From assembly GCA_934045905.1 (NCBI GenBank), contig OW203761.1, positions 34,088,964 to 34,152,963 of the forward strand: 64,000 nucleotides of DNA, read 5' to 3'. Below the pieces are notes generated by a model that was not told the origin of the DNA, did no database searches, and saw nothing but the letters and a program-made list of their open reading frames with translations. Below are positions 11,597 to 48,989 of this stretch, one piece after another. Numbering within the stretch: the stretch's first letter is position 1; each line of letters opens with the position of its first letter. The position numbers and the translations under genes are program-made. The stretch is from Leuctra nigra (lineage: Eukaryota; Arthropoda; Insecta; Plecoptera; Leuctridae).

Positions 11597-11705
11597 GTAA
11601 TCTTGGTTGCCATGACACCACTCCAGTGACGTTCGGCTATGACGTCATCACAAGATGTTCTCTTCCACTGCAGCCATCGGACTTTGAAGACTGTTTCAGT
11701 CTGAG
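11597..11705 (+). CDS. Tectonic (TCTN family), internal exon a
   Basis: First of five exons for the C-terminal part of a tectonic protein, a secreted or membrane glycoprotein of the ciliary transition zone. Acceptor TTGCAG precedes it and donor CTGAG/GTAAGA follows. GT completes a codon from an unseen exon, then 35 codons, then AG (phase 2). The peptide includes TPVTFGYDVITRCSLPL and DFEDC. From memory, an FG-x-[ND]-x-x-x-x-C-x-L pattern followed by a C is typical of tectonics. The family call rests on this motif, on the later CERLPTSHVLHVMY block and on a final C-terminal membrane segment. It was made by eye, not by search. The donor is also the first unit of a 54-bp minisatellite. Confidence 0.72.
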
Positions 11706-12124
11706 GTAAGACCGACTTGCGAGAGGCAATGATTCCACCAACTCCTGTCAGTCTGAGGTATAAGACCGACTTGCGAGAGGCAATGATTCCACCAACTCCT
11801 GTCAGTCTGAGGTATAAGACCGACTTGCGAGAGGCAATGATTCCACCAACTCCTGTCAGTCTGAGGTATAAGACCGACTTGCGAGAGGCAATGATTCCAC
11901 CAACTCCTGTCAGTCTGAGGTATAAGACCGACTTGCGAGAGGCAATGATTCCACCAACTCCTGTCAGTCTGAGGTATAAGACCGACTTGCGAGAGGCAAT
12001 GATTCCACCAACTCCTGTCAGTCTGAGGTATAAGACCGACTTGCGAGAGGCAATGATTCCACCAACTCCTGTCAGTCTGAGGTATAAGACCGACTTGCGA
12101 GAGGCAATGATTCCACCAACTCCT
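11696..12124. repeat. 54-bp minisatellite at the 5' splice site of tectonic exon a, 8 copies
   Basis: Eight near-identical units. The first overlaps the exon's last 10 bases and carries the canonical donor CTGAG/GTAAGA. The later seven carry CTGAG/GTATAAG, a 2-bp insertion that weakens the donor. Because 54 is divisible by 3 and the later units lack stops in several frames, spurious repeat frames are open on both strands (11717-12148 +, 11551-12189 -, 11696-12130 -). Extending the exon through the true donor hits TAA at once in the tectonic frame, so the array is not coding for this protein. Confidence 0.9.
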
Positions 12125-12209
12125 TGCCACGATAGAACATCAACTTGATCGATAGGTCTGAGGCTAAGCATTAGATACATAGGAAACAAATTCTACATAG
12201 TACATAGTG

Positions 12210-12490
12210 AGTCTTAAAGAATAACTGATTACTTAATTAAGATTTCTTGCCCAGTTAAAATAAGAAACAATAGCTGATAAGTGATATGCTTTATTATTTT
12301 GACGCTTATTTTTAACTGGCAAGATATCTTAATTAACGGACAGGTTTTCAATACTCTACTAAATTTTAAGCAGTTACTATATTGTCATGGGAATAACCAA
12401 TGACATTCATTGAATGACCGTTTAAACTTAACTACTTCCTTAACTGAGTATTGCAAACAGGCTCTAAGTAATAAGTTATTCTTTACGACT
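12210..12490. mobile_element. Inverted-repeat MITE in tectonic intron
   Basis: The outer ends pair (GTCTTAAAGAATAACTGATT at the left, AATAAGTTATTCTTTACGAC at the right), and a strong inner pair lies at 12230-12340 (TTAATTAAGATTTCTTGCC with its complement). About 280 bp, non-coding. Superfamily and target duplication are undetermined. It sits in the 8.5-kb intron between the 54-bp and 115-bp arrays. Confidence 0.55.
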
Positions 12491-13585
12491 GACATACGAT
12501 GAAAGATGTGGCTTTGCTTGACGATAAATCGTCCCATTCTCTACTCGTCTGAATCGAGTTTTTAGAAAGAGGGATGCAGCCCTTGCACCGAGGAGCAGGT
12601 GCTTTCTTCTCGTGAATAGACACCGATTGAATGACATCACATATATCCTACAATTATTGAAACTCGTTTCATGGCTGAATTGTATTGGATGGACGTAAAC
12701 GTCCAAGACGAGCAATCGGAATCGTGGGTGAAATTAGATTGGAATAAACGTGTCAGCAGTATGGGTTTTTTAGACTCGGTCTGTACAATATTTCACGCGC
12801 TTGCGTCATGCACCTGCTCAAGATTCGCAGGCTGAAACGGCGCTTTATGGATTGCCAATAACATTTGCCGAGTCCTGAATCAAATAGATGTGAACGAATC
12901 GTGGGAAATTGTCATTTTCGAAGTGTATTTTTAAACTGTTCTTTTAACACTAAATGATTATGTTTATTACATTTATTTAATAGGGTCGTAAACATTGTAA
13001 AATGTAAAATTAAATTAAATTAAAAAAACAAAATAAAATTAGCGCAAAGTTTCCTCTCTATCAGATTTCTTTATTAACCGGGGATGACCCCGGGTGTATC
13101 CAAGTAGGTATTCAGTTTGTCTGTATATTTAATTATAAATATAATAATTTCATATCCATTTTAAACTTAAATCAAATTCTGTGATATTTCTGTAGCTATG
13201 CACATAATATTAATTATAAAAAGTTTTCATGAAATCGTTGAGGGATGCTTACTTTTCAAGAAAATAAATAACAATTCCTAGTTTATGCAAATCTTTTATT
13301 TACAGAATGGGAATCTCGTTATTTCAATTCTCCAGAAATCTATCTCTATGCAATTTAAGTCAAGATATTCACTTGGCAAGTAAATGACGAACAAGTATGA
13401 AGTGAAACTCTTTGAATGCTCTATAGAACTAATTATAATCAAGGAAGACTTTCCTGTTGCACAAGCTAGAACTTTCTAAGAGCACCTGAAAGTTTTACAA
13501 GTTCAATGAAGTTAATTACCAACATTTCATTGTTACAAAATGCAAACTTGTTAACAACTTTTCGCGAGTTTCTAAGCGCGCAAGA
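12491..13585. other. Tectonic intron sequence
   Basis: No exon or repeat is recognised. The 79-codon minus-strand frame at 12476-12715 is taken as chance. Confidence 0.45.
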
Positions 13586-16500
13586 ACATTGTGTAGCGAT
13601 TAGATTGACAGTCTTGTCGTGTGTGCCCAGGTCTCGGGTCCAGACACTGCAGGAGAGCTTGGTGTCCGGACACTTCCTGGCCGGTGGAGGTGCCGTGTGG
13701 ACATTGTATCGCGATTAGATTGACAGTCTTGTCGTGTGTGCCCAGGTCTCGGGTCCAGACACTGCAGGAGAGCTTGGTGTCCGGACACTTCCTGGCCGGT
13801 GGAGGTGCCGTGTGGACATTGTGTCGCGATTAGATTGACAGTCTTGTCGTGTGTGCCCAGGTCTCGGGTCCAGACACTGCAGGAGAGCTTGGTGTCCGGA
13901 CACTTCCTGGCCGGTGGAGGTGCCGTGTGGACATTGTATCGCGATTAGATTGACAGTCTTGTCGTGTGTGCCCAGGTCTCGGGTCCAGACACTGCAGGAG
14001 AGCTTGGTGTCCGGACACTTCCTGGCCGGTGGAGGTGCCGTGTGGACATTGTGTCGCGATTAGATTGACAGTCTTGTCGTGTGTGCCCAGGTCTCGGGTC
14101 CAGACACTGCAGGAGAGCTTGGTGTCCGGACACTTCCTGGCCGGTGGAGGTGCCGTGTGGACATTGTATCGCGATTAGATTGACAGTCTTGTCGTGTGTG
14201 CCCAAGTCTCGGGTCCAGACACTGCAGGAGAGCTTGGTGTCCGGACACTTCCTGGCCGGTGGAGGTGCCGTGTGGACATTGTGTCGCGATTAGATTGACA
14301 GTCTTGTCGTGTGTGCCCAGGTCTCGGGTCCAGACACTGCAGGAGAGCTTGGTGTCCGGACACTTCCTGGCCGGTGGAGGTGCCGTGTGGACATTGTATC
14401 GCGATTAGATTGACAGTCTTGTCGTGTGTGCCCAGGTCTCGGGTCCAGACACTGCAGGAGAGCTTGGTGTCCGGACACTTCCTGGCCGGTGGAGGTGCCG
14501 TGTGGACATTGTGTCGCGATTAGATTGACAGTCTTGTCGTGTGTGCCCAAGTCTCGGGTCCAGACACTGCAGGAGAGCTTGGTGTCCGGACACTTCCTGG
14601 CCGGTGGAGGTGCCGTGTGGACATTGTGTCGCGATTAGATTGACAGTCTTGTCGTGTGTGCCCAGGTCTCGGGTCCAGACACTGCAGGAGAGCTTGGTGT
14701 CCGGACACTTCCTGGCCGGTGGAGGTGCCGTGTGGACATTGTATCGCGATTAGATTGACAGTCTTGTCGTGTGTGCCCAGGTCTCGGGTCCAGACACTGC
14801 AGGAGAGCTTGGTGTCCGGACACTTCCTGGCCGGTGGAGGTGCCGTGTGGACATTGTGTCGCGATTAGATTGACAGTCTTGTCGTGTGTGCCCAGGTCTC
14901 GGGTCCAGACACTGCAGGAGAGCTTGGTGTCCGGACACTTCCTGGCCTGTGGAGGTGCCGTGTGGACATTGTGTCGCGATTAGATTGACAGTCTTGTCGT
15001 GTGTGCCCAGGTCTCGGGTCCAGACACTGCAGGAGAGCTTGGTGTCCGGACACTTCCTGGCCGGTGGAGGTGCCGTGTGGACATTGTATCGCGATTAGAT
15101 TGACAGTCTTGTCGTGTGTGCCCAGGTCTCGGGTCCAGACACTGCAGGAGAGCTTGGTGTCCGGACACTTCCTGGCCGGTGGAGGTGCCGTGTGGACATT
15201 GTGTCGCGATTAGATTGACAGTCTTGTCGTGTGTGCCCAGGTCTCGGGTCCAGACACTGCAGGAGAGCTTGGTGTCCGGACACTTCCTGGCCGGTGGAGG
15301 TGCCGTGTGGACATTGTGTCGCGATTAGATTGACAGTCTTGTCGTGTGTGCCCAGGTCTCGGGTCCAGACACTGCAGGAGAGCTTGGTGTCCGGACACTT
15401 CCTGGCCGGTGGAGGTGCCGTGTGGACATTGTATCGCGATTAGATTGACAGTCTTGTCGTGTGTGCCCAGGTCTCGGGTCCAGACACTGCAGGAGAGCTT
15501 GGTGTCCGGACACTTCCTGGCCGGTGGAGGTGCCGTGTGGACATTGTGTAGCGATTAGATTGACAGTCTTGTCATGTGTGCCCAGGTCTCGGGTCCAGAC
15601 ACTGCAGGAGAGCTTGGTGTCCGGACACTTCCTGGCCGGTGGAGGTGCCGTGTGGACATTGTGTCGCGATTAGATTGACAGTCTTGTCGTGTGTGCCCAG
15701 GTCTCGGGTCCAGACACTGCAGGAGAGCTTGGTGTCCGGACACTTCCTGGCCGGTGGAGGTGCCGTGTGGACATTGTATCGCGATTAGATTGACAGTCTT
15801 GTCGTGTGTGCCCAGGTCTCGGGTCCAGACACTGCAGGAGAGCTTGGTGTCCGGACACTTCCTGGCCGGTGGAGGTGCCGTGTGGACATTGTGTCGCGAT
15901 TAGATTGACAGTCTTGTCGTGTGTGCCCAGGTCTCGGGTCCAGACACTGCAGGAGAGCTTGGTGTCCGGACACTTCCTGGCCGGTGGAGGTGCCGTGTGG
16001 ACATTGTGTAGCGATTAGATTGACAGTCTTGTCGTGTGTGCCCAGGTCTCGGGTCCAGACACTGCAGGAGAGCTTGGTGTCCGGACACTTCCTGGCCGGT
16101 GGAGGTGCCGTGTGGACATTGTATCGCGATTAGATTGACAGTCTTGTCGTGTGTGCCCAGGTCTCGGGTCCAGACACTGCAGGAGAGCTTGGTGTCCGGA
16201 CACTTCCTGGCCGGTGGAGGTGCCGTGTGGACATTGTATCGCGATTAGATTGACAGTCTTGTCGTGTGTGCCCAGGTCTCGGGTCCAGACACTGCAGGAG
16301 AGCTTGGTGTCCGGACACTTCCTGGCCGGTGGAGGTGCCGTGTGGACATTGTGTCGCGATTAGATTGACAGTCTTGTCATGTGTGCCCAGGTCTCGGGTC
16401 CAGACACTGCAGGAGAGCTTGGTGTCCGGACACTTCCTGGCCGGTGGAGGTGCCGTGTGGACATTGTGTCGCGATTAGATTGACAGTCTTGTCGTGTGTG

Positions 16501-19500
16501 CCCAGGTCTCGGGTCCAGACACTGCAGGAGAGCTTGGTGTCCGGACACTTCCTGGCCGGTGGAGGTGCCGTGTGGACATTGTATCGCGATTAGATTGACA
16601 GTCTTGTCGTGTGTGCCCAGGTCTCGGGTCCAGACACTGCAGGAGAGCTTGGTGTCCGGACACTTCCTGGCCGGTGGAGGTGCCGTGTGGACATTGTGTC
16701 GCGATTAGATTGACAGTCTTGTCGTGTGTGCCCAGGTCTCGGGTCCAGACACTGCAGGAGAGCTTGGTGTCCGGACACTTCCTGGCCGGTGGAGGTGCCG
16801 TGTGGACATTGTGTAGCGATTAGATTGACAGTCTTGTCGTGTGTGCCCAGGTCTCGGGTCCAGACACTGCAGGAGAGCTTGGTGTCCGGACACTTCCTGG
16901 CCGGTGGAGGTGCCGTGTGGACATTGTATCGCGATTAGATTGACAGTCTTGTCGTGTGTGCCCAGGTCTCGGGTCCAGACACTGCAGGAGAGCTTGGTGT
17001 CCGGACACTTCCTGGCCGGTGGAGGTGCCGTGTGGACATTGTATCGCGATTAGATTGACAGTCTTGTCGTGTGTGCCCAGGTCTCGGGTCCAGACACTGC
17101 AGGAGAGCTTGGTGTCCGGACACTTCCTGGCCGGTGGAGGTGCCGTGTGGACATTGTGTCGCGATTAGATTGACAGTCTTGTCGTGTGTGCCCAGGTCTC
17201 GGGTCCAGACACTGCAGGAGAGCTTGGTGTCCGGACACTTCCTGGCCGGTGGAGGTGCCGTGTGGACATTGTGTAGCGATTAGATTGACAGTCTTGTCGT
17301 GTGTGCCCAGGTCTCGGGTCCAGACACTGCAGGAGAGCTTGGTGTCCGGACACTTCCTGGCCGGTGGAGGTGCCGTGTGGACATTGTGTCGCGATTAGAT
17401 TGACAGTCTTGTCGTGTGTGCCCAGGTCTCGGGTCCAGACACTGCAGGAGAGCTTGGTGTCCGGACACTTCCTGGCCGGTGGAGGTGCCGTGTGGACATT
17501 GTATCGCGATTAGATTGACAGTCTTGTCGTGTGTGCCCAGGTCTCGGGTCCAGACACTGCAGGAGAGCTTGGTGTCCGGACACTTCCTGGCCGGTGGAGG
17601 TGCCGTGTGGACATTGTGTAGCGATTAGATTGACAGTCTTGTCATGTGTGCCCAGGTCTCGGGTCCAGACACTGCAGGAGAGCTTGGTGTCCGGACACTT
17701 CCTGGCCGGTGGAGGTGCCGTGTGGACATTGTGTCGCGATTAGATTGACAGTCTTGTCGTGTGTGCCCAGGTCTCGGGTCCAGACACTGCAGGAGAGCTT
17801 GGTGTCCGGACACTTCCTGGCCGGTGGAGGTGCCGTGTGGACATTGTATCGCGATTAGATTGACAGTCTTGTCGTGTGTGCCCAGGTCTCGGGTCCAGAC
17901 ACTGCAGGAGAGCTTGGTGTCCGGACACTTCCTGGCCGGTGGAGGTGCCGTGTGGACATTGTGTCGCGATTAGATTGACAGTCTTGTCGTGTGTGCCCAG
18001 GTCTCGGGTCCAGACACTGCAGGAGAGCTTGGTGTCCGGACACTTCCTGGCCGGTGGAGGTGCCGTGTGGACATTGTATCGCGATTAGATTGACAGTCTT
18101 GTCGTGTGTGCCCAGGTCTCGGGTCCAGACACTGCAGGAGAGCTTGGTGTCCGGACACTTCCTGGCCGGTGGAGGTGCCGTGTGGACATTGTGTCGCGAT
18201 TAGATTGACAGTCTTGTCGTGTGTGCCCAGGTCTCGGGTCCAGACACTGCAGGAGAGCTTGGTGTCCGGACACTTCCTGGCCGGTGGAGGTGCCGTGTGG
18301 ACATTGTATCGCGATTAGATTGACAGTCTTGTCGTGTGTGCCCAGGTCTCGGGTCCAGACACTGCAGGAGAGCTTGGTGTCCGGACACTTCCTGGCCGGT
18401 GGAGGTGCCGGGTGGACATTGTGTGGCGATTAGATTGACAGTCTTGTCGTGTGTGCCCAGGTCTCGGGTCCAGACACTGCAGGAGAGCTTGGTGTCCGGA
18501 CACTTCCTGGCCGGTGGAGGTGCCGTGTGGACATTGTGTCGCGATTAGATTGACAGTCTTGTCGTGTGTGCCCAAGTCTCGGGTCCAGACACTGCAGGAG
18601 AGATTGGTGTCCGGACACTTCCTGGCCGGTGGAGGTGCCGTGTGGACATTGTGTAGCGATTAGATTGACAGTCTTGTCGTGTGTGCCCAGGTCTCGGGTC
18701 CAGACACTGCAGGAGAGCTTGGTGTCCGGACACTTCCTGGCCGGTGGAGGTGCCGTGTGGACATTGTGTAGCGATTAGATTGACAGTCTTGTCGTGTGTG
18801 CCCAGGTCTCGGGTCCAGACACTGCAGGAGAGCTTGGTGTCCGGACACTTCCTGGCCGGTGGAGGTGCCGTGTGGACATTGTGTCGCGATTAGATTGACA
18901 GTCTTGTCGTGTGTGCCCAGGTCTCGGGTCCAGACACTGCAGGAGAGCTTGGTGTCCGGACACTTCCTGGCCGGTGGAGGTGCCGTGTGGACATTGTGTC
19001 GCGATTAGATTGACAGTCTTGTCGTGTGTGCCCAGGTCTCGGGTCCAGACACTGCAGGAGAGCTTGGTGTCCGGACACTTCCTGGCCGGTGGAGGTGCCG
19101 TGTGGACATTGTATCGCGATTAGATTGACAGTCTTGTCGTGTGTGCCCAGGTCTCGGGTCCAGACACTGCAGGAGAGCTTGGTGTCCGGACACTTCCTGG
19201 CCGGTGGAGGTGCCGTGTGGACATTGTGTCGCGATTAGATTGACAGTCTTGTCGTGTGTGCCCAGGTCTCGGGTCCAGACACTGCAGGAGAGCTTGGTGT
19301 CCGGACACTTCCTGGCCGGTGGAGGTGCCGTGTGGACATTGTGTCGCGATTAGATTGACAGTCTTGTCGTGTGTGCCCAGGTCTCGGGTCCAGACACTGC
19401 AGGAGAGCTTGGTGTCCGGACACTTCCTGGCCGGTGGAGGTGCCGTGTGGACATTGTGTAGCGATTAGATTGACAGTCTTGTCGTGTGTGCCCAGGTCTC

Positions 19501-20255
19501 GGGTCCAGACACTGCAGGAGAGCTTGGTGTCCGGACACTTCCTGGCCGGTGGAGGTGCCGTGTGGACATTGTGTCGCGATTAGATTGACAGTCTTGTCGT
19601 GTGTGCCCAGGTCTCGGGTCCAGACACTGCAGGAGAGCTTGGTGTCCGGACACTTCCTGGCCGGTGGAGGTGCCGTGTGGACATTGTGTCGCGATTAGAT
19701 TGACAGTCTTGTCGTGTGTGCCCAGGTCTCGGGTCCAGACACTGCAGGAGAGCTTGGTGTCCGGACACTTCCTGGCCGGTGGAGGTGCCGTGTGGACATT
19801 GTATCGCGATTAGATTGACAGTCTTGTCGTGTGTGCCCAGGTCTCGGGTCCAGACACTGCAGGAGAGCTTGGTGTCCGGACACTTCCTGGCCGGTGGAGG
19901 TGCCGTGTGGACATTGTATCGCGATTAGATTGACAGTCTTGTCGTGTGTGCCCAGGTCTCGGGTCCAGACACTGCAGGAGAGCTTGGTGTCCGGACACTT
20001 CCTGGCCGGTGGAGGTGCCGTGTGGACATTGTGTCGCGATTAGATTGACAGTCTTGTCATGTGTGCCCAGGTCTCGGGTCCAGACACTGCAGGAGAGCTT
20101 GGTGTCCGGACACTTCCTGGCCGGTGGAGGTGCCGTGTGGACATTGTGTAGCGATTAGATTGACAGTCTTGTCGTGTGTGCCCAGGTCTCGGGTCCAGAC
20201 ACTGCAGGAGAGCTTGGTGTCCGGACACTTCCTGGCCGGTGGAGGTGCCGTGTGG
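13586..20255 (+). repeat. 115-bp satellite-like array, 58 copies, made of a 3' splice site plus exon start
   Basis: About 6.67 kb, 58 head-to-tail units of exactly 115 bp with very few substitutions. Each unit is 45 nt of intron end plus the first 70 nt of the next tectonic exon. The intron part has a branch-like TTGAC, a pyrimidine/GT tract and the acceptor GTGTGCCCAG. No unit contains a good donor; the only one lies in unique DNA after the last unit. Variant sites include GTATCGC / GTGTCGC / GTGTAGC, CCCAGGTC / CCCAAGTC, and GTCGTG / GTCATG. These show alternating and block-duplicated units, for instance the GTCATG-marked block recurring 2,070 bp (18 units) apart at about 15572 and 17642. 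Short overlapping frames in both directions are by-products. Confidence 0.97.
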
Positions 20256-20296
20256 AATCCGACGCAGAACGACACGAACTTAGTGCCTATCTTGAG
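20186..20296 (+). CDS. Tectonic, internal exon b (starts inside the last 115-bp unit)
   Basis: Acceptor GTGTGCCCAG, then 111 nt: one base completing AG/G (Arg), 36 codons, and AG before donor TTGAG/GTGAGC. The peptide includes LQESLVSGHFLAGGGAVW then NPTQNDTNLVPIL. I recall tectonics having a glycine-containing stretch and a W-V-P-[IV]-like segment at this place. The start was chosen because only this acceptor joins exon a in frame; the alternative CACTGCAG acceptor 20 nt further in would be out of phase. The first 70 nt are identical in the 57 upstream copies, each of which reads into TAG six codons past the end of its exon part. Confidence 0.68.
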
Positions 20297-23042
20297 GTGA
20301 GCTTTGTGACTTGATTACCTAATATCCGCTTTTTTCCAGTTCTATTATGTTCTACGAACACCAAATAAATGTTGATCGACAAATAAATGGATGCCATAAC
20401 ACTCTGGGTTAGGTCTCATAGCTCACATTTGTTCTTAGTTCTGTTCCTCAAACGCAGAAAGACTGATGTGTATTACAATGTTTTTGCGTTACACACTGTA
20501 AGAATCATGCAATCAATCTCTATTAATTCCAATTTGACTGAAGTCCACAAATACATTGAAGTATCTTTAAAAATAGCGGCTGACACAATTACAAATATTA
20601 ATTGATGAAAACAGAACTACAGGTTTTTGAGCTCTTCTCAAGAACCATGAACCAAGGACCATCAGGCCTGCGGCGTTTGAGGTACAGAGGGTTTGATCTA
20701 AGTTTGAATTCTACGAATTCTACATATTACGGGTTCGAATCCCGGAGGATATGAAAATCTTTTCGTCTTGCAGTTGGTATATTCACATCAACCTATCCTC
20801 ATAAGGAAAAGCCATATTTCAAAAGAATCTAAGGTATCTTTTGAATTATACAATTGAAATGGATGATCGATGCGTATATTCAATTTTTTTTAGAGACTCG
20901 GAGAAAATTCTCAGACATTCCTTTTTTGAGAATATTCTACAAAGCGTAATTTTGTTCATGTTTTAGAAACGGTATAAACTTATGTCTTGACATGGTAAAA
21001 TGTTGTCCAAGACTTGACTTGGTAATGAAACAAATCAATATCAATGGGATTCTTAACAAAACGTTCAGCTGGGTTGGTCGCGAAATGCAGACACACCTGT
21101 TTCATTGTTACGCAAGCAAGCTATTGAGAACGCGGTCTTTGGATCTCGACTACTTTTCTTTGTGTAGAAAAAGAAGCGAAATTCAATAAGTTTCTTCTGT
21201 ACCATTTTCTGCTTCCTTCCATGTCTTTTCTATCCACTCTACAGGTTTAATCGATGTCGGTATACATAGCTATAACCAGCTCAGATGTAGCTCACAAATC
21301 AAACAGTGGTAATGATACAAGTCGAGTCAACGACTTCCCAATATGTTTCAATCTATTTACACTGCATGCATGTTTATTTTGTCACAGTTGGTTTTGTAGA
21401 GTGGGGATATTGCTATGAAAGTGAACTGCTCAGATTATCACTTGCATTATGTGAGCGTGCCTCACATAATATAATGATTTTCGAAAAGAAAGTAATGATC
21501 GATTTGCATGCATCTACTTGCGAAACTTCTCTTTGACAGAGCTCAACTCAGCGGTTATTGCTCTTTTCCATAAAACTCGTTTTTCTTAAAAAAAATATAT
21601 ACCTCATAATATTAATAATCTGGCAAATAGAGAAGTATTGGCACTCTATCTTTTTTGCACGTCATTCAGGATACCAGAGTTCTATTTCCACTGACAAATT
21701 ACCTTAGATTTCGTTTACTTTCCTCCGTCGACATGCAAATGCTGTGACATTCTTAAAATAATAGTCCGTCATTCCCGCTTCTTTCCTAACAACCTTCTTC
21801 CAAGATCAAAATCAAGACCTCCTAATCAAAATAACTCGAAGTATAAAATGTATCAACTAGCTGCGAAGACATCAAGAAACACATTTTAATGATCGATCAA
21901 AAGAAGCATTAAACAGTTGTCTCTATTGTCCCAATCGGAAAGATCGTCTTTTCTGTAACATACTAATGACAAAAAGTATATTGTGTGGCGTTTGCGTATT
22001 AGGTTTTTCCGACGTCTCCTCCCACCTCTCTCCCACCGACGCCGCAACACCAGGACGCTGGAGCGTCGTCCTTAGTTGAACTCATTACGCCGTCCCGACG
22101 CTCACCGACGTCTTTATGGCGTCTGCCACGGGCATAAACCAGGATGTAATGCAACAAAGGCGCACGAAATAATCGCGACTGAGCTCCTAAGTCGCCGCGA
22201 GACGAACAAGTTTCAATGTATTTCTTTCTGACAAAGCGAGGGCAAATTAGATTCCCGCTGCTTTATATTGTGTGACTTACTCAATTAGGGGTGGAATTTG
22301 ATTTCGCCATTGAGTGGGGAAGAAATGTCACCGAATGTTTGAATTTTCTCTTCTAAATTAATTGGCTTCATTTGTACAGGCTTGAACCGACGAATCTATA
22401 CTCGATTATTCGCCGAGTAATTTCCAACAAAGTATCATTCTTACAGATCTAACTATATTTATTCACATTTAAAATAAGTATTGAGCTCATAGGAATACAT
22501 TTTATGGATAAAGTTTTCATTTTGAATAAAGTTTTGAAAAAGTATTATCTTTTTAATTCTCCCAGAACGGTGAAAACTAGTTTAAGATAATAGTGATTAT
22601 TGAGAAGCTGGAATTTTGGATCCAATTATTAATAATGAATTTACCCTGCTCTTGTCTTGGAATGCAGTAGCACGATATAAAAATAGATTTGATTTGATAA
22701 TTTTCACATTTGCTCACTTTTTCCCACACAAGTGGCCATCACGGTAAAGTCAAACTCAAATCTTGCGAGTCATCAATGCAAGATTGTTCCTCTACACATT
22801 TAGAGAAAACGAGACCTGTGTTGCCATGGAAACTAAGGGTTAGTCTTATGAAGGGCGGCCGTACTACCAACCCGTCACAAACGTTTTCCCTTTCACGGTT
22901 TTTTCATGCATGGCCTCATTGAAAATGATCTCGTTGGTGTAATGAAGAGAATAATCGATGTCAAATTGCCCATCCTAATATTTACACTCGAAAACCCTAG
23001 CATCTTGAAATACTGGAAATAAGACGTTATGGCGTTTTGTGC
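20297..23042. other. Tectonic intron b, left part
   Basis: Intron sequence with no exon candidate. It contains a decayed SINE at about 20690-20800. GC-richer patches near 22010-22130 show no domain or splice context. Confidence 0.45.
20690..20800 (+). repeat. Decayed tRNA-derived SINE fragment
   Basis: A pol III box B-like GGGTTCGAATCCC is followed by a tail block (AAAATCTTTTCGTCTTGCAG then TTGGTAT) resembling the tail of the SINEs at 31780-31930 and 32087-32245. The tRNA-like 5' half is not recognisable. Confidence 0.5.
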
Positions 23043-23174
23043 ATGCATCCTTATTTGAGTTCCTAAAATGCGTATAAAACCTCAAATTATGATACTTTTA
23101 AGCTTATTAGTTTCTTAAAAGTGTCTTTATTTGAGGTTTAAACGCTATTTTGCAACTCAAATAAGGATGCATCT
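23043..23174. mobile_element. Short MITE with ATGCATCC inverted ends
   Basis: A 130-bp inverted repeat beginning ATGCATCCTTATTTGAGTT and ending in its reverse complement. The second inner block (TAAAACCTCAAAT with ATTTGAGGTTTAAA) makes most of it a hairpin. Non-coding. Confidence 0.65.
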
Positions 23175-23747
23175 TTTAAGATGTTTAAAGATGTTTAGGT
23201 TTTAAAGTGCACGTATTATTTTCAAATCAGTTATACATTTTTACTATCGACATGATTTTCACAGTCGCGTTTAAAATAGAGCAGTACGAGAACGTATTAT
23301 ATTACACTTCTGAATAATGTTTCTCAATTATTTCTTGCTAACCGGCATGAGGGTTATGATGAGGGTATGTACTTCTAGCCAGCGGGTATAAGTGTAAGAA
23401 TATGTGAAGTTATGTTCGTGTTATAATAGTCTACTGTACTGCATCAGCTGAACGCTGCCTCCGGTCCCGTGAGAATATGAGATTATAATTAATATGCACT
23501 ATACAGCTACGACTTAAATTATGAATTTGATAAGTTGTTGAAATTAAAACAGAGATAACTGAGCACCGCTTACCCATTTAAGAGAGGCATTAACATTATC
23601 TATATAGGAAAACAAGTCTACTTGGAATAATCTAACTCTAAGTACAATCCTGCAGTACAATCCCAATATTTCTATATATAAAAATAAATTGAAATAATTT
23701 TTTTCCCTGTGAGGTATACTATTGACCCAAGAGAGACTTGGTATATA

Positions 23748-24383
23748 ACGGGTGGCGCAAAAAAAATCACCCTGATTGAGAGGTCACTATATCGAAACTA
23801 TTATCTAGATAGGATTCTGAAATTTGTACACATATTAGAAAGCATACCAAAATTTAAATGTGAAAATTTCAAACATATTCATTCATTAGGAAAAAAGTTA
23901 AATGATTGAAGTTACAGCTGAAAACAGATTAAACCAGACGAAATTAACGTGTTTGATGAATTGATTTGGAGTTACTCTGTAGGAATGAGGTGAATTTATG
24001 TTTATTTATACATTTCTAAATAAACATAATTTTATGTTTATTAAATCTATGCGAATTTGTCTTGGATTTCTTAAATAGTGTACGTGTGAATTTATGTAAC
24101 TTTCGTGACGACATTAAGCGGAGTTAACATTTCCAATTCATCGTTGGAAATTCCGCCACAATAACTTCTCCCTCCATATCTCTTCTTGAAACCACGTCTC
24201 TATGAGATATAGACTTCAAGTGCATGTAACTTTTTTCGCATTACCTACACATATATTTCTGAAAATTGAACATATTTAAATTTTGTTCTATAACATGTGA
24301 AAGTTTCAGCACTTTATCTTAAACTATAAATAGTTTTGGTGTAGTGACCTCTCAAACAGGGTGGATTTTTTTGCGCCACCCGG
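23748..24383. mobile_element. Mariner-type MITE (TA target), copy 1
   Basis: The ends are ACGGGTGGCGCAAAAAAAAT and, at the right, a segment ending TTGCGCCACCCGG. Long terminal inverted repeats include GAGAGGTCACTATATCGAAA. TA dinucleotides flank both ends, consistent with a Tc1/mariner-like target duplication. Partial frames inside are non-coding. A fuller copy lies at 27563-28386. Confidence 0.7.
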
Positions 24384-24702
24384 TAGATCATTGACCCTGG
24401 ATAAAGGGTGTTTTTTGATGACGAAAGAGCGTTTGATATTTAGATTATGCAATCAGCAATCATTGTTGTTCTGAGTTGTACATGTATTTTAATTGTTTTT
24501 TGGAAAAACAAAGCATTTCGTATAAATGAATTATGGACTACACATAGGATTTTTTTAGACAGAAGTAAATAAGCACATTACCTTGGTGTTGATTTTGTTT
24601 AATGTGTTTATTTAACTCAAATACATTGTATTTCTTTACCGTGCGATTGAAAACAAAATGTTTTGTGAAGAAATTACGTAACGAGCACGTATTGTGTCAC
24701 AG
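24384..24702. other. Tectonic intron b, right part
   Basis: Short AT-rich intron end leading to acceptor TTGTGTCACAG. Nothing else seen. Confidence 0.5.
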
Positions 24703-24879
24703 CGCGTCGCCATCGCAAGACGCCGCTAACTCCAGCGACGCCGCCAACTCCAGCGACGCCGCCGACGCCGCCGACGCCTGCGAGCGCCTGCCGACGTCGC
24801 ACGTGCTCCACGTCATGTACACGACGGCGACGTCCACCACCGGGCATCGCATCCACCGCGTCGTCGGCGCCAAGAGCAG
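24703..24879 (+). CDS. Tectonic, internal exon c
   Basis: GC-rich 177-nt exon between acceptor GTGTCACAG and donor AGCAG/GTAATC. One base completes AGC, then 58 codons, then AG. The peptide starts ASPSQD, runs through NSSDAANSSDAADAADA, then CERLPTSHVLHVMYTT and GHRIHRVVGAK. The latter part resembles what I recall of the tectonic block with a cysteine, a P-T/S-S-L/V-H segment and a short beta strand. The NSSDAA repeat comes from an 18-bp imperfect tandem (AACTCCAGCGACGCCGCC) and looks like a coding minisatellite insertion. It could add N-glycosylation sites (N-S-S twice). Confidence 0.72.
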
Positions 24880-26289
24880 GTAATCGAACGAGTAATCAAT
24901 ATCGACGAGTGAGATTTATAAATAGTTGGAGTGTCGGTGGTGAAGTTATGAGTATGAATTGTCACGAACACTGATGTTAGAAACTGATTCAGTGGAGACT
25001 TGAATGAGCACGAAGGGGAAAGGAAGGATCATTAGAAAATAAGATAAAATTGTGACATAAAGCGTTTCCAGGAACGTGAATTTCAGAATTCCAAAATAAG
25101 TAGTGAAGGAACTTCAGAACTTCGTGCTTCATTCAAATTACTTACACTTTAACCCAAACTCTTTTAGATTTTGTTGTTTGATCTCCCGATTCAAGTAGTG
25201 GCTCTTTTAGAGTAGAACTTTAAGCTTTTAATGAATGGTGTACTCTATAGTAATCCTCACTTACCCTTTCAAACTATTTTTCACTCATTTCAACGTATAC
25301 TTAAATCCCGTTTTTGTAAATTTTCTCCACTTGGAGCTTAAAACTGCATCGTCTTCAATTATATAACTCGTTCGAAATGTCAATAGTCGCGTGCGGTTTT
25401 GACATTTCATTCGGCTTCTTAAAAGCAGGCAAATCGTTTTCGCACATCAATCGCGTTTGGGTTTTCATACAATTTCTCGGTGAAAAAAAAAACTCTTCTC
25501 TTGTAATACTGCGTGAAATGTGAAATTTTATTTCAAATCCAATTCGTTTTGGCTGTTTTTCTCGTACCTGTCAGGATGAGTTGTGGGGCGAACGAGGTTC
25601 TAAGCGCGCTGGCGGAGTGTATCGGTGGTTCGAGATGCAAGTGGCGAGATGCACTCCGAGCACGTCGCTGCAGTCAATACTGATACACGTCCGTGCATCA
25701 CGTGCGGGGACGTGCACTCAACGTGATTACACATTAATGTGGGAACGTGGCTGTGTGAGAAGCATAGAATATGATGTTTTGGAAGTGACTTGACATTCCT
25801 AGCATCTAGTGTTTGGAGTTAAAATGCAACAAACCCCTATTTTCATTAGCAGTGTATAGGTAATTGATTTCAATGCATTAAGTATTTTGTAAACAGTGTC
25901 GTTAGTACGAAATTTTCAAATAATTCCAGATTGACATTTGAATTCTAAACGCTCTCAAACTGGCAGAGTTAAAAATTAAAATATTGTGTCCGATGGTGAA
26001 CGTAACTTGATGCCAGTATTGCATTTTAATTGCCAATATTTCTAATTTTCTATTGCCATGCTATTACCGTGATTAAACTCAAATTTTTATTTGTAAATTG
26101 GGATTTGTTCAATTACAAACATAAAGTTACTACTTGGTACTATAAGTTAATATAACTTAGAAATACGAGAATTGCATATTAATTGGCAATAAATAGCTCT
26201 AGCGGTCATAACGTTATACTTCTCTGCGTAGATAAGTCGCTTCATCACCAGAATAATAATTCTAGGACGGGGAAGAGTTTGAGTGAGAT
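24880..26289. other. Tectonic intron c
   Basis: No exon is needed here: exons c and d join in phase. A GC-rich open patch at 25581-25793 follows an AG acceptor-like site but has no phase-compatible donor and no family resemblance. Confidence 0.45.
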
Positions 26290-27019
26290 CAGGGCCGGCT
26301 TAAGGTACATTCTTGATGTACGCGAAAAATGATAATGCCGCCTATCAAGGGCGTACGCAGGATGACATTTCTATTGTGAGGAGGGGGGGGGGGGGCACGT
26401 TCTTAATAATTTGAAAACTTACAGACGAAATAGGGGGGTTCGGGGGCGCAGCCCCCGAGAAAATTTTGGTTCAATGTCATTCGATTTGGTGCAATTTTGA
26501 ATAGCAGATTAGTTATTTTTGGGAAATATAAATTACCAATGTCCAAAAATAATTCCAGTAAATTTGGTAAGTTTTCGACATGATCTGCCTCTTTCTTTTA
26601 CTTTTTTGTTCACATATTATTTTAAATGTGCTGCTTTCTTAGATGATGTTCTGATTTTGGGGGGGACGCTCCCGGATTTTTTACATTTCATGGTCATTTT
26701 GAAGTAAACCTACGCGTTTCTGGTAAAATTACTGCAACATTGAACTCAATTTTTCTTGGTAATTTTTCATGCGCAAACAAAAAGTTCAGGAACATATCTA
26801 GGTGAAGGTATTAACATAACATGAACGAGATTTGTTTGGATACATTACAAAACATCAGTCGTCGTTTCCCCAAAAATAATTTTATTTCTTCCGAGCTTGA
26901 ATATTGGTCAACATGATGACACAAAATAGTAAATTTTCAAAAAATGCTGAAAGTGCCGCCTATCCGAATGTGCCGCCGTACGCGGTCGCGTACGTCGCCT
27001 ATGCCTAAAGCCGGCCCTG
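26290..27019. mobile_element. hAT-type non-autonomous transposon
   Basis: Terminal inverted repeats CAGGGCCGGCTTAAGG and (reverse complement of the right end) CAGGGCCGGCTTTAGG, flanked by a perfect 8-bp duplication AGTGAGAT at 26282-26289 and 27020-27027. An 8-bp duplication with CAGGG ends is the hAT hallmark. Inside are a 13-G run (26383-26395) and a GC hairpin (GGGGGCGCAGCCCCCGA), possibly from a nested element starting near 26347. No transposase is encoded. The right end lies 20 bp before the next tectonic exon. Confidence 0.88.
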
Positions 27020-27047
27020 AGTGAGATGTACTCTTCTTCATTTCAAG

Positions 27048-27158
27048 CATGGAGACAGAACCCTGGCCGGATGTGACGTCACATGGCGGCCATCTTGTGC
27101 TGAGCTCATCAGTGGTATTCGTGCAGGTTCCGGTGGATGATGTCAAACCGAGATCGAG
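27048..27158 (+). CDS. Tectonic, internal exon d
   Basis: Acceptor CTTCTTCATTTCAAG, 111 nt (one base, 36 codons, AG), donor ATCGAG/GTACTG. One base completes AGC, then METEPWPDVTSHGGHLVLSS and SVVFVQVPVDDVKPRS. The alternation SSSVVFVQV suggests a beta strand. The Met is internal, not a start, because the frame continues from exon c. The exon contains TGACGTCA next to ATGGCGGCCATCTTG. The donor GTACTG is weaker than average. Confidence 0.7.
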
Positions 27159-27562
27159 GTACTGCACAAAATAGTTTTATTTATAAATTATCTACATTTC
27201 TCTCCAAGAGTTGGTACTGCGTTTTGCATTATAGACAAATTTTATTATTTAAACTTACCTATTAGTAGATAGTAGAAACTATAGTTGAAACTAATGCATG
27301 TTGTTATTTTCTTCTGCTTGTGTAAAATATGTGCTAAGTATTATTTTTGTTGTGTGAGTATTGAACTTTGAACTTTGAGGAGTTAGCTCTGTCTAACAAG
27401 TAAATAAGCAATTTACTAGTCTGATGTAATACATCTCTGACTAGAGAGAATCATCAGGGAGATGTGATGTGTAGGAGGAAGCAATACTCACTTTTCTCTC
27501 CAGAGTCTTGAAACTGCACCGTGGGATGATTCATCAACCCACTCATTTACATTGCACTTATA

Positions 27563-28386
27563 CCGGGTGGCGCAAAAAAAATCACCCTGTTTGAGAGGTC
27601 ACTATATCGAAGCTATTATATATAGGATTCTGAAATTTGTACACGTATTAGAAAACATACCAAAATTTAATATGTGCAAGTTTTAAAAACATTACTATTG
27701 TAGGAAAAAGTTACAGCTGTTCAAATTTGGTTGTCAAAAAATTGATTATACGGAGCTCAAATAGCGCGCGTCGAGAAAACTTCCAATGGCCGGGACGCTG
27801 TTTCTTCAAAACTACTTACGGTATCAAGCTGAAAATTTCAAATTATATTGAAAATATATTAAGATCGATTGTGTACAAATTTCAGTCAATTTGAATGAAT
27901 GGAACTAAAATTATGGAATCTTGCAGTTGAGCTTGGAAACTGAATAGATGGGAAAAGAGTCACTTTTATAACGTGTGTAATAAAAGTTTAGAAATAATTT
28001 TTCTTTTCTGATTTTACGCTCAACTTCAAGATTCCATAATTTTCGTTCCATTCATTCAAATTGACTGAAATTTTTACACAATCGATCTTAATATATTTTC
28101 AATATAATTTGAAATTTTCAGCTCGATATCGTACGTAGTTTTAAAGAAACAGCGGGCCATTGGAAGTTTTCTCGACTCGCGCTATTTGAGCTCCGTATAA
28201 TCAATTTTTTGACAACCAAATTTGAACAGCTGTAACTTTTTTCCTATAATAGTAATTTTTTTGAAACTTGCACATATTAAATTTTGGTATGTTTTCTAAT
28301 ATGTGTACAAATTTAAGAATCTTATCTATAATAGTTTCGATATAGTGACCTCTCAAACAGGGTGATTTTTTTTTTGCACCACCCGG
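27563..28386. mobile_element. Mariner-type MITE (TA target), copy 2
   Basis: An 824-bp element with ends CCGGGTGGCGCAAAAAAAAT and the inverse, flanked by TA on each side. The arms are long inverted repeats (about 300 bp each, including GAGAGGTCACTATATCGAAG and CTCGACTCGCGCTATTTGAG-type blocks) around a short unique centre near 27950-28010. Non-coding. It lies in tectonic intron d. Confidence 0.8.
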
Positions 28387-28854
28387 TATATCTAATAAAA
28401 CCACATTTACATGATGTGAAAATGTGTTTCATGATGTGTTTCATGATTTTCATGATGATGATTTTGACTAAAGTTTAAATAAACCCTATGACGGAGTTCA
28501 CATTACCCCCTTTCTCATGATTGAGAATTTATTATATTTATTTTTATTTTATGTAGAACGTAAAAACGTTTGGTATTTTAATGTTTAATTTTGAACATAA
28601 TTAATTTATATGTTTTCAAGTTAATATTTAGATTGTTTCATGTATTATTCGTATACAGTTTCGTACTGTGTACTGTTTCGTGTACTCTCTACTAGTCAAG
28701 TTTAGATGTTATGAATTATCTATTTAGGCGATGACAGCTGATTGAATCCGCATTTTGTAATTGAACTAAAATGTCGTTAACATGAGGGTCTCCATATCGG
28801 ATATCTCACAGACTACGCAATACTTCTTGTCCAAGTGTGTGTGTGTTTCAACAG
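28387..28854. other. Tectonic intron d, right part
   Basis: AT-rich with short ATGATG-like repeats at about 28410-28460 and a GT run in front of acceptor GTTTCAACAG. No other feature. Confidence 0.5.
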
Positions 28855-29026
28855 GTTCTGGCAAGGTGTGCTGGCGCCACATGGGTCCGCGTCAGCGTGG
28901 ATCAACATGTGGCAAGTGTTTGACGACGTCGTCTCCAGAGACGAGTTGATCGAGATATCAGTGTCATGCATCGTCGTCGTCTTGATGGCGGCAGTCCTGG
29001 GCTCGCTGCTGGCGACGCATCAATAA
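28855..29026 (+). CDS. Tectonic, terminal exon e with C-terminal membrane segment
   Basis: Acceptor TGTGTGTTTCAACAG; one base completes AGG (Arg), then 56 codons and TAA. The peptide reads FWQGVLAP, then SAWINMWQVFDDVVSRDELI, then a hydrophobic segment ISVSCIVVVLMAAVLGSLLA and THQ stop. A single C-terminal membrane helix with a very short tail fits the membrane-anchored tectonics (TCTN2/3-like). Immediately after the stop begins a tandem array whose units resemble the DNA coding for this helix. Spliced together, exons a-e give about 225 residues without a stop, which is the main evidence that they form one gene. Confidence 0.75.
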
Positions 29027-29815
29027 TCCCACCGCTGACACCAAGTAGACGACTACCAATCTCTGCCACCAGTTGTGAAGTTGCATGTCTCCATCTTTCT
29101 GACTGCAGTCATGGAATCTTTCCTGACGACGCATAATATATCCCACCTGCGCCACCAAGTAGACTCGTACTACCAATCTCTGCCACCAGTTGTGAAGTTG
29201 CATGTCTCCATCTTTCTGACTGCAGTCATGGAATCTTTCCTGACGACGCATAATATATCCCACCTCCGCCACCAAGTAGACGACTACCAATCTCTGCCAC
29301 CAGTTGTGAAGTTGCATGTCTCCATCTTTCTGACTGCAGTCATGGAATCTTTCCTGACGACGCATAATATATCCCACCTGCGCCACCAAGTAGACTCGTA
29401 CTACCAATCTCTGCCACCAGTTGTGAAGTTGCATGTCTCCATCTTTCTGACTGCAGTCATGGAATCTTTCCTGACGACGCATAATATATCCCACCTCCGC
29501 CACCAAGTAGACTCGTACTACCAATCTCTGCCACCAGTTGTGAAGTTGCATGTCTCCATCTTTCTGACTGCAGTCATGGAATCTTTCCTGACGACGCATA
29601 ATATATCCCACCTCCGCCACCAAGTAGACGACTACCAATCTCTGCCACCAGTTGTGAAGTTGCATGTCTCCATCTTTCTGACTGCAGTCATGGAATCTTT
29701 CCTGACGACGCATAATATATCCCACCTCCGCCACCAAGTAGACTCGTACTACCAATCTCTGCCACCAGTTGTGAATTTGCATGTCTCCATCGTGCAGACT
29801 GCTGATCTGAATTCT
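29027..29815 (+). repeat. 111/117-bp minisatellite in the tectonic 3' UTR
   Basis: About six and a half units alternating in length by a 6-bp TCGTAC indel (GACGACTACC versus GACTCGTACTACC) and by CCTGCGCC/CCTCCGCC. Each unit aligns with the last coding bases of exon e plus the first bases after the stop: GATGGCGGCAGTCCTGGGCT in the exon corresponds to GACTGCAGTCATGGAATCTT, and the exon's CATCAATAATCCCACC to CATAATATATCCCACC. Unit lengths divisible by three keep frames open on both strands (29075-29836 +, 28964-29953 -); I regard these as shadows. Confidence 0.88.
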
Positions 29816-30453: not shown

Positions 30454-30821
30454 CTAGGAAAACACTCATTGTACCGCGTTGATGAGCGAGCACAAGTATA
30501 CGTGCAAATTCTCGAACTGGAATTGCGTACACACAATGCACAGAAAACATATACATCCATATTGAATCGAAATATGATCCACTCAATCAACATAAAATAT
30601 ATGCTTTTCATTGAATCTTGAAAATAGTATCTTAACACTCTGGTACCTAAAGAAAATCAGATTCAGTTGCAGTGAAAAACATTCATTTCGACACTTCAAT
30701 TCGGACAGCTATTAAAAATGCCAATAAGTGCATACGTTCTTAACTGATTGGGATAAAAATTTGTAAAAGACCATGCAAAATATGAGTTTGATCAGATTTA
30801 TCAGAGGAAATTAGAGAAAGG

Positions 30822-31082
30822 ATGGAGAAGAAGGACACGGTGGTACAAGAGATTGAAGAACGAAGGTTAAAGTGGTACGGGAATATGAGAAGGATGGACG
30901 CGAACAGGTGGCCACAGAGGATGTGGGAGTGGGTGCCACCTGGACGGCGGTTTAGAGGGCGTCCGGCCAAGGAATGGCACTCCGAGGTTAAGGAGGCTAT
31001 GGAAAGTCATCAACTGGAAGAGGACGAATGGAGGGACAAGGATTCCTGGCGTCTAGGATGCGAGACACGGCCACGGCTGTAA
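30822..31082 (+). pseudogene. C-terminal fragment of a non-LTR retrotransposon ORF2
   Basis: 86 codons, including EERRLKWYGNMRRMDANRWP, then a Gly/Arg-rich GRRFRGRPAKEW and a final WRLGCETRPRL. This RRLKWYG-H/N-x-x-RM ... RGRPxxxW pattern is the usual C-terminal tail of insect LINE polymerases. The endonuclease and reverse transcriptase are missing, so it is a 5'-truncated dead copy. Its last ~70 bp begin the 118-bp tandem repeat. Confidence 0.8.
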
Positions 31083-31675
31083 ATCACTCGCAATATCCTA
31101 GACGCCAGGAATCCTCCCAGCAATATATAAACTGGAAGAGGACGAATGGAGGGACAAGGATTTCTGGCGTCTAGGATGCGAGACACGGCCACGGCTGTAA
31201 ATCACTCGCAATATCCTAGACGCCAGGAATCCTCCCAGCAATATATAAACTGGAAGAGGACGAATGGAGGGACAAGGATTTCTGGCGTCTAGGATGCGAG
31301 ACACGGCCACGGCTGTAAATCACTCGCAATATCCTAGACGCAAGGAATCCTCCCAGCAATATATAAACTGGAAGAGGACGAATGGAGGGACAAGGATTTC
31401 TGGCGTCTAGGATGCGAGACACGGCCACGGCTGTAAATCACTCGCAATATCCTAGACGCCAGGAATCCTCCCAGCAATATATAAACTGGAAGAGGACGAA
31501 TGGAGGGACAAGGATTTCTGGCGTCTAGGATGCGAGACACGGCCACGGCTGTAAATCACTCGCAATATCCTAGACGCCAGGAATCCTCCCAGCAATATAT
31601 ATATATTGCGAGTGATTTACAGCCGTGGCCGTGTCTCGCATCCTAGACGCCAGGAATCCTTGTCCCTCCATTCGT
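31012..31675 (+). repeat. 118-bp tandem repeat of the LINE 3' end (5 copies) plus an inverted copy
   Basis: Units start AACTGGAAGAGGACGAATGG and end AGCAATATAT. Five units (31012-31602) are nearly identical, with rare changes such as GATTCC to GATTTC. From 31606 to 31675 lies a perfect reverse complement of the first ~70 bp of a unit. The unit spans the end of the LINE ORF and its short 3' UTR. Confidence 0.9.
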
Positions 31676-31689
31676 ATATATATATATAT

Positions 31690-31930
31690 ATAATTAATAC
31701 CAACTGCAAATTGAAAAGATTTGCCTACTGTGGGGATCGAACCCACGTCCCTGAATTGCCGGTCCAGTGCTCTAACCAGATTGAATAGCCTGCTTAGCTT
31801 AGTGGTTAGAGCACTGGACCGGCAATTCAGGGACGTGGGTTCGATCCCCACAGTAGGCAAATCTTTTCAATTTGCAGTTGGTATTAATTATCATCACCCT
31901 CTCTGAGGTCATCAGAAAAAACCATGTTAG
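31690..31930. mobile_element. Head-to-head inverted pair of tRNA-derived SINEs
   Basis: The left copy is reversed (tail AATACCAACTGCAAATTG first) and the right copy is forward. The arms are reverse complements from about 31696-31782 and 31807-31893. The 24-nt loop (31783-31806) is the 5' head of the right copy, so the left copy lacks its own head. Box A-like TAGCTTAGTGG and box B-like GGTTCGATCCC are present. A cloverleaf can be drawn (GCCTGCT/AGTAGGC, GTGGG/CCCAC), but position 33 would be C, so it is not a working tRNA. Confidence 0.8.
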
Positions 31931-32086: not shown

Positions 32087-32250
32087 GAATAGCCTGCTTA
32101 GCTTAGTGGTTAGAGCACTGGACCGGCAATTCAGGGACGTGGGTTCGATTCCCACAGTAGGCAAATCTTTTCAATTTGCAGTTGGTATTAATTATCATCA
32201 CCCTCTCTGAGGTCATCAGAAAAAACCATGTTAGTCATATATATATATAT
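32087..32250 (+). mobile_element. tRNA-derived SINE, third copy
   Basis: Same sequence as the forward arm at 31783-31930, with an exact box B GGTTCGATTCC, the tail AAATCTTTTCAATTTGCAG then TTGGTATTAATTATC, and a terminal (TA)n run ending at the right target duplication. Confidence 0.8.
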
Positions 32251-39275: not shown

Positions 39276-39371
39276 GAGGTTGTTTATTTTGCGTTCATTT
39301 TGAGAAAGCGTCTACCGTGAGAGATCGTTTTTCAATCCACATTGTGTCACTTCAGTGGAATTCCAACAGAC

Positions 39372-41781: not shown

Positions 41782-41834
41782 TTGAGCGAGCGTAGCGAGC
41801 GTCACCACGGTACTCTTATGGCACTTTCTCTGTG

Positions 41835-41881
<47 letters not shown>

Positions 41882-43266
41882 CTGCACTGCCCAGGTCAAA
41901 CCGCACAACCAATCGATCTGAAATTTTGTACACATACTAACGTAATCTATGCGATCCCTGGGATCTTTTCTGAACTGTATCCTGTGATTGGTTCAAATTT
42001 TATAAAAATTATCTTTCGATTGGTTGGTTCGATCAATTTGAAATTTAGCAAAGTCATTGCAACCAACATTGTACCCAATCAAAAAAAAATTCAGCCAAAT
42101 CCTCCAATTGGTTCAAATTTGAAACCATTTTTCCTGTGATTTTTGAAATTTAAACTGGAACCGATTGACCGACCAGCTAAAAACTTCGCATGGTCATTGG
42201 TACCAACATTTAAAGTATTTTTGCCAATTTTCACTCTAATCTGTCGTTATTTTCAAAAGTTTTTGTCATTTTAGGGACATTTTGCGTGTTGGCTGTCAAA
42301 TTCACGGCGACTTCGAATCTACAAGGCAAGGTAGTTAGAGCAGAAAGTTTTAAACGATATGAAACTAACAACAGATTGATCTGATATTGTGTACACACAC
42401 TACATCATATCATATGGGTGGTCCCAGGTATATTTTTTGAACGAGATCCTGTGATTTTTGAAAATTAACAAGGAACCGTTCAATCATAAAGGTTTAATCG
42501 ATCAACTTAAAACTTAGCAAGGATTGGCACCAATATTTTTCATTTGTATACTTAATTTAAAACGGCCTATAGCCACACCACCATTTGACCTATCAAATGG
42601 TCTTCGATTAATCTGATCAATCAAACTCATATTTTGCATGGTCGTTCAGACCAACATTGTCTCTTATTTTACAAATTTTCAGCCCTACCAGTCAAGAACA
42701 TAGATGCACTTATTGACAGTTTTAATAACTGTCAGAAATGACATTTCAAAACAGAAATTCCACTGCATTCTGGGTTGCTCTATGTAGCAAAGCAAAGTTT
42801 ATAGATGGCTATTCTCAATATCAAGTAAGACAGATTCTTTTCTTAGTTGATCATATTGCAATACATAATGTAGTCAAAATGTAATGTCGGTATTTCATAT
42901 ACATAGGTATAGGTAAACCTTATCTAAAATAATTTATTTTACGATATGGATTGTGTTTCACAGTTATGAAAACGACGTTTTGACTAGATAACATCATATT
43001 TTACTCATTTCCAGCCCAATCGGTCAAGAATTTACAGACTTATTGCTGTAAGTGTTTGAATATCTGTCCAAAGAGATTGATGGAAAAATATCAGTACAAT
43101 AATCTGTTATTTAATTGATCCAGAGTGTTTATGAAAAGTTGCAAGGAAAATTGGTAATAAATAATGTATAGTTAGTTATCTTTGATTGAATGGATCGTGC
43201 TATGATTGGCGATGTCGTGCGTGTCGGTGCTCGCTCATCAACGCGTTACACCGAGCGTTTTCCTAG
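41782..43266 (+). mobile_element. Helitron-like element, 1.49-kb copy
   Basis: Runs from A/TTGAGCGAGCGTAGCGAGCG to the stem CGCTC...GAGCG and CTAG/T. There is a 41-T run at 41839-41879. It is almost identical to 48893-50374, so both are young or recently exchanged. There is no open frame of substance: apparent frames through the T-run are artefacts. Helitron features are the 3' CTAG, a near-terminal hairpin, insertion between A and T, and no target duplication. The 5' TT instead of TC is unusual. Confidence 0.78.

Positions 43267-48945: not shown

Positions 48946-48989
<44 letters not shown>

Follow-up and report, generated by a model that had tools for sequence, protein, structure and literature searches.

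Minisatellites of the lancelet mirage type at exon edges of a tectonic-like gene and of unrelated genes in the stonefly Leuctra nigra

Tandem arrays at the edges of exons have been described in lancelets under the name of mirages: minisatellite-like tandem duplications of an intron/exon boundary that carry either the 5' or the 3' splice site, found in the genes for Adh3, globin, troponin C and PGBD5 (PMC3087553, PMC3902484), of which PGBD5 was added in the later report (PMC3902484), where Adh and troponin C are cited. According to the excerpts of these papers on which we rely, the boundaries of the repeat clusters escape homogenisation, and splicing is reported to be undisturbed. Two other systems come close, again as far as excerpts of the sources go: some internal tandem repeats of segmentally duplicated human genes lie at exon-intron boundaries (PMC2812944), and introns have been gained through AGGT segments duplicated in tandem in the genome (PMC3443670, PMC4974935). 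Here we describe a 64,000-nucleotide stretch of the Leuctra nigra genome (contig OW203761.1, positions 34,088,964 to 34,152,963 of the forward strand; the window), in which three exons of a tectonic-like gene each have an array at one edge, and we report that such exon-edge arrays recur at unrelated genes of the same genome. These arrays belong to the kind already known from lancelets. A preliminary description of the window, made from the sequence alone, had held that no such case was described, a statement that the lancelet and human reports overturn. The reading we favour, with a probability of roughly 0.72, is that the window arrays are mirage-type minisatellites for which GC-biased duplication, together with the survival of arrays that cross an exon edge, is the likeliest basis.

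The three arrays are real and lie at the exon edges first proposed for them, as determined by Tandem Repeats Finder and by inspection of the sequence (Table 1). Array a takes in the last 10 bp of exon a, before the donor; its first copy is 52 bp long and carries GTAAGA, whereas copies 2-8 are 54 bp long and carry GTATAAG. Each unit of array b combines 45 bp of intron end, including a CCCAG acceptor, with 70 bp of exon b; all 58 units are of equal length and fall into 11 types, and the last is continuous with the unique remainder of the exon. In three of the 58 copies (6, 9 and 44) the acceptor AG is lost, leaving CCCAA. Array e, whose units measure either 114 or 117 bp, starts 15 bp ahead of the TAA stop codon, and its unit covers the coding end and the stop codon rather than a splice site. 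The sizes first given for arrays a and b stand, while the 111/117 bp and roughly 6.5 copies first given for array e become 114/117 bp and about seven. At the array ends, the first copy deviates in arrays a and e, and the last in array e, both end copies of which have diverged; in array b the first and last units are each one position off the consensus, so that end divergence is not evident there. Expansion of array b by duplication of whole blocks was considered, and the longest repeated block of unit types (six) was reached by 21.8% of 500 shuffles, so we make no claim for this mode.

Four exons of the host gene (a, b, c and e) remain in frame when joined, giving 189 residues that match the Pfam tectonic family PF07773 at 22.8 bits (E 1.4e-4), a narrow margin over the curated cut-off of 22. 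The five tectonic exons of the preliminary description are thereby reduced to four: the candidate at 27127-27158, flanked by AG and GT, puts exon e out of frame and was rejected as a constitutive exon. Replacing exon e by this candidate's reading lowers the PF07773 score to 21.9 bits, so exon e's own support is weak. The 18-bp coding repeat reported for exon c is present and in frame. No upstream exons were identified by motif and open reading frame (ORF) listing, and no orthologue matched a 73-residue query, nor did any of the 1610 candidates returned for the 189-residue query, padded with X, reach E <= 10.

How closely does this locus resemble the described systems? Like lancelet mirages, arrays a and b are boundary-spanning tandem arrays, their units reaching across the junction of intron and exon, and beside each stands an exon that is complete and keeps an intact splice site: exon a retains GTAAGA in the proximal copy, and exon b is joined to the last acceptor copy. 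Unlike the lancelet mirages, as far as the excerpts describe them, the L. nigra arrays belong to an insect and lie at many genes unrelated to one another, and a single gene holds three of them, one over the stop codon; array b, moreover, has 58 copies, against 6 and 3 in two haplotypes of the lancelet globin gene BflGb6. The human repeats likewise include minisatellites that overlap exon-intron boundaries, but the excerpted text gives units averaging 30 bp in four copies (for all gene-modifying repeats) and alternative splicing via novel introns, whereas the exon in L. nigra is expected to be unchanged (PMC2812944). With AGGT-type intron gain, as excerpted, our arrays share local tandem duplication that carries splice signals; in that process, however, duplication within an exon creates a new intron between the two copies, whereas in L. 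nigra the extra copies sit in introns that already existed, and nothing points to a new one. For insects, planthoppers among them, no report of exon-edge arrays was present among the matches listed in our literature search, which is no proof of absence, as subscription journals were outside its scope; in a paper on Daphnia tandem repeats (PMC3152781), none of the terms tried was present.

The arrays would be tolerated, most likely, because splicing is still possible at the copy beside the exon. Reading on beyond the first donor of array a gives ..SLR and then immediately a TAA stop, and splicing into array b at an acceptor farther upstream would yield ..AVWTLYRD or ..AVWTLCRD and then a TAG stop in the next unit. 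Because distal donors and upstream acceptors run into stops, full-length protein would come only from the proximal sites, and the spliceosome is expected, from the reading frame and the lancelet reports, to use the first donor of array a and the last acceptor of array b. Array b puts 58 acceptor-region units ahead of exon b, and human boundary minisatellites are reported, in the excerpted text, to change splicing (PMC2812944), as might be expected if the arrays had a regulatory role in how the host gene is spliced or expressed. We consider such a role highly improbable, as the units of different arrays are not related to one another in sequence, some copies of array b lack the acceptor AG as noted above, and the lancelet arrays are reported, in the excerpts, to leave splicing undisturbed (PMC3087553, PMC3902484).

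An array of 6.7 kb whose units are nearly identical is also difficult to assemble exactly, and false arrays or false copy numbers might be suspected. That the pattern is an assembly artefact is most improbable in view of the contiguity of the genome (144 contigs, including one of 68 Mb), the point variants scattered among the copies of array b, and the arrays at other loci, each of which is joined to its own exon.

Table 1. Exons, arrays and other features of the window, and exon-edge arrays elsewhere in the genome.
Feature	Position	Strand	Description	Evidence
Exon a	11597-11705	+	Tectonic-like gene exon (..FGYDVITRCSLPLQPSDFEDCFSLR); 3' end CTGAG, then GTAAGA donor	Sequence; share of joined PF07773 match
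Array a	11696-12124	+	54 bp x 8.0, 99% matches; across 5' splice site of exon a, into intron	Tandem Repeats Finder
Array b	13586-20256	+	115 bp x 58.0, 98% matches; across 3' splice site of exon b	Tandem Repeats Finder
Exon b	20186-20296	+	RSRVQTLQESLVSGHFLAGGGAVWNPTQNDTNLVPILR; codon of first residue divided between exons a and b; acceptor is last of array b	Sequence, frame; joined PF07773 match
Paired element, first	23743-24388
Exon c	24703-24879	+	Contains in-frame 18-bp coding repeat (DAANSS) at 24719-24778
Paired element, second	27559-28390
Exon e	28855-29026	+	C-terminal exon, hydrophobic stretch; stop TAA at 29024-29026	Sequence, frame
Array e	29009-29802	+	117 bp x 6.9, 95% matches; across stop codon of exon e, into 3' flank	Tandem Repeats Finder
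Fourth array	31012-31601	.	118 bp x 5.0; outside exons a, b, c, e; inverted repeat within unit	Tandem Repeats Finder, unit split
tRNA-like sequences	31788-31859, 32092-32163, 55672-55745, 55989-56062
F-box-like frame	39321-40628
Dispersed repeat	41786-42139, 47480-47830, 48897-49247	+
Donor array, spaced sample	L011:8751		Exon matching GST theta	PDB E 7.7e-4 for whole sequence, no stretch passing alone; Pfam GST_C_2 below cut-off
Acceptor array, spaced sample	L011:5687		Exon matching kinase STK32A	PDB E 0.0038; no Pfam family
Donor array, spaced sample	L012:63		After coding-looking sequence	No family match
Donor array	L029		Ceramidase	Pfam 3.3e-4, below cut-off
Donor array	L031		FLVCR1	PDB 2.3e-12
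Donor array	L032		ABC transporter	Pfam 9e-6, above cut-off
Donor array	L033		Dpr-interacting protein	PDB 3.5e-6
Donor array	L036		Protein kinase	Pfam 1e-8, above cut-off
Donor array	L038		Helicase	Pfam 1.6e-6, above cut-off
Donor array	L039		Odorant receptor	Pfam 1.3e-8, above cut-off

Since the pattern was picked from one window, the chance that three ordinary arrays had fallen on three exon edges was calculated. In this model each array was collapsed to one unit, all three had to cross one of the eight edges of the four exons, and the edge positions used were in error by up to 2 bp. The chance is 2.7e-4 with uniformly placed seeds, 0.012 with seeds weighted 17.5:1 towards GC-rich segments, and 0.033 with seeds in GC-rich segments only, a rise that suggests that GC content accounts for much, though perhaps not all, of the arrangement. 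The GC content of the four exons is 0.49-0.72 against a sample mean of 0.39. The weighted values are not tiny, and taken alone would leave room for a coincidence limited to the tectonic-like gene. Such a coincidence is very hard to credit once the rest of the genome is considered, since a like arrangement is found there at exons with homology support and control motifs form significantly fewer arrays.

Array loci (unit of at least 30 bp, at least 2.8 copies, at least 85% matches) were collected from 17 stretches of 10 kb spaced 2 Mb apart on the same contig, 170 kb in all. Ten were found, three of them on exon edges (Table 1), and in 8 of the 10 the unit had a GC content of at least 0.5, compared with 18.8% of 60-bp segments. 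We place no weight on a chance value of 0.0036 calculated for this sample, which took n = 12 in place of the 10 loci and an edge coverage of 2.7% assumed from general gene numbers. A mechanism particular to the tectonic-like gene was dropped because of the like arrangement in these samples; that gene is a rich example and not a special case. Of the process in gene or genome first suggested, recurrence across the genome is borne out, and a gene-specific process is not needed.

An annotation-free search for repeated splice sites extended this comparison. The donor pattern was three consecutive MAGGTRAGT motifs spaced 44-74 bp apart, and the controls were the reversed motif and a motif with GT changed to GC, which is GC-richer by one changed letter. 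As a few long arrays contribute most of the raw matches, arrays were counted instead, by hand, over the stretch shared by the lists (C1 to C3:30.5 Mb, ~155.6 Mb), which contains 12 donor arrays, 3 reversed and 1 GT-to-GC. Whole-genome counts of the single motifs, copies inside arrays included, are 12,709, 21,898 and 8,912, respectively; scaled by 29%, they give Fisher p values of 8e-4 against the reversed motif, 0.02 against the GT-to-GC motif and 2e-4 against both, with odds ratios of 6.9-8.4. A donor array marks the end of the shared stretch, which introduces a slight bias; without that array the values are 0.0018, 0.02 and 5e-4. On the acceptor side, the motif YTTKCAGG has 628 matches against 230 for its reverse, and 9 arrays against 2 on C1 to 65.0 Mb, where the single motifs number 27 and 24 (binomial p 0.05). 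Position is the property common to the arrays, as first proposed; the arrangement recurs in the genome, and control motifs yield fewer arrays. In two GT-to-GC arrays, C5:12254696 and C5:21369627, CAG/GCAAGT follows coding-looking sequence; these are possible arrays at GC-AG introns, and some arrays of this control look like live GC-AG donors. The reversed acceptor control also led to a 66-bp array of ~5.8 kb at C1:54065675-54071479, which reads CAG/GTGAGC on the opposite strand and may be a donor-edge array.

All 12 donor-motif arrays were examined, and for seven of them the exon in which the array begins has homology support (Table 1); two of the matches, to an odorant receptor and a Dpr-interacting protein, point by themselves to an insect. 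One further donor array from the single-motif list (L053/L054) is coding-looking, with no Pfam family. At 12 loci, array a included, the donor array starts within the exon, taking in 7-70 of its bases, and extends into the intron. Two of the three arrays of the reversed motif were examined (L040, L041), and neither is bordered by coding sequence. Eight of the nine acceptor arrays on C1 were examined.

These data can be accommodated by one sequence of events. A short stretch straddling one exon edge was duplicated in tandem and then expanded, with units of 54-117 bp in the window and ~30-110 bp at other exons of the genome. Because arrays, in the spaced sample, prefer GC-rich DNA, and exons are GC-rich in this AT-rich genome, many seeds would land on exons. 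Those wholly within an exon would usually alter the protein and be lost by selection, while those across one edge would leave the exon whole and its adjoining splice site intact, their extra copies becoming intron or 3' flank. GC-rich exon edges in AT-rich DNA, named in the preliminary description as a possible setting for slippage or replication restart, are the factor that the data favour most, given the GC-rich units of the sampled arrays and the GC-weighted chance.

Several observations weigh against this account of GC-biased duplication and survival. In the spaced sample, 7 of the 10 arrays were not tied to an exon, being either ambiguous or without a visible one. Among the donor arrays, L028 and L030 are coding-looking with no usable match, L037 has a coding-looking unit in an examined stretch that starts about inside the array, and no exon was recognised at L034 (unit of ~20 bp) or L035. 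Four acceptor arrays (L042, L044, L045, L048) are coding-looking, and the three of them that were searched (L042, L044, L048) gave no match; four others (L043, L046, L049, L051) are ambiguous. Raw matches do not favour the donor motif (204 against 237 reversed), some donor and control arrays have short units (9-31 bp), and, beyond the shared stretch, the reversed motif totals 7 arrays up to C7:27.3 Mb and the GT-to-GC motif 8 up to C6:32.6 Mb. Two rough genome-wide estimates, one from the 12 strict donor arrays in 155.6 Mb and the other from the 3 in the 170 kb sample, lie several-fold apart; leaning on general donor-motif frequencies, we can only roughly put the number of exon-edge arrays at hundreds to thousands. 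Finally, the three-array chance stays at just 0.01-0.03 under GC weighting, and in the shared stretch the GC-richer control gives rise to arrays at a lower rate than the donor motif does.

These last two points could instead reflect a process linked to splicing or transcription (R-loops, pausing, transcription-replication conflict) that seeds duplications at exon boundaries beyond base composition and selection, in a genome with perhaps hundreds to thousands of exon-edge arrays. All three window arrays at these exons cross edges, donor arrays outnumber those of the GC-richer control 12 to 1 within the same stretch, and the excess over reversed motifs is seen on the donor and acceptor sides alike. 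However, donor motifs mark genuine exons, whose GC richness extends more widely than the motif itself, making the control imperfect; that control reaches its higher total over a longer stretch; most of the sampled arrays are GC-rich; and purifying selection would likewise leave edge-crossing arrays. We regard boundary-specific seeding as unlikely, and prefer GC-biased duplication followed by survival at edges.

The window contains a fourth array of like size class, missed in the earlier count of three. It begins at the end of an ORF (30792-31082) without a Pfam match, which we take to be retroelement-like in appearance, and is followed by an inverted partial copy (whole region 31012-31676). 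Two related elements are bounded by terminal inverted repeats whose start reads about CGGGTGGCGCAAAAAAAATCACCCTG; most of the second element forms a palindrome, its arms being 92-99% complementary. The tRNA-like sequences are paired, resembling tRNA-Ala(ggc) and tRNA-Ser(gga), and are perhaps parts of repeated elements. A dispersed repeat is present in three near-identical copies bearing ORFs, and a single open frame encodes an F-box/leucine-rich-repeat-like protein (F-box-like E 5.5e-10).

In conclusion, boundary minisatellites known previously, to the extent that the excerpted reports cover them, came from scattered lancelet genes and human paralogs, and exon arrays at unrelated genes of one insect provide a set for studying how tandem duplication starts. 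The repeated splice sites may mislead gene annotation in such genomes. The arrays also bear on how splicing handles dozens of decoy sites and on whether such arrays feed intron gain. Should boundary-specific seeding prove true, L. nigra would be a natural system in which to measure the origin of boundary duplications and their input to intron evolution.

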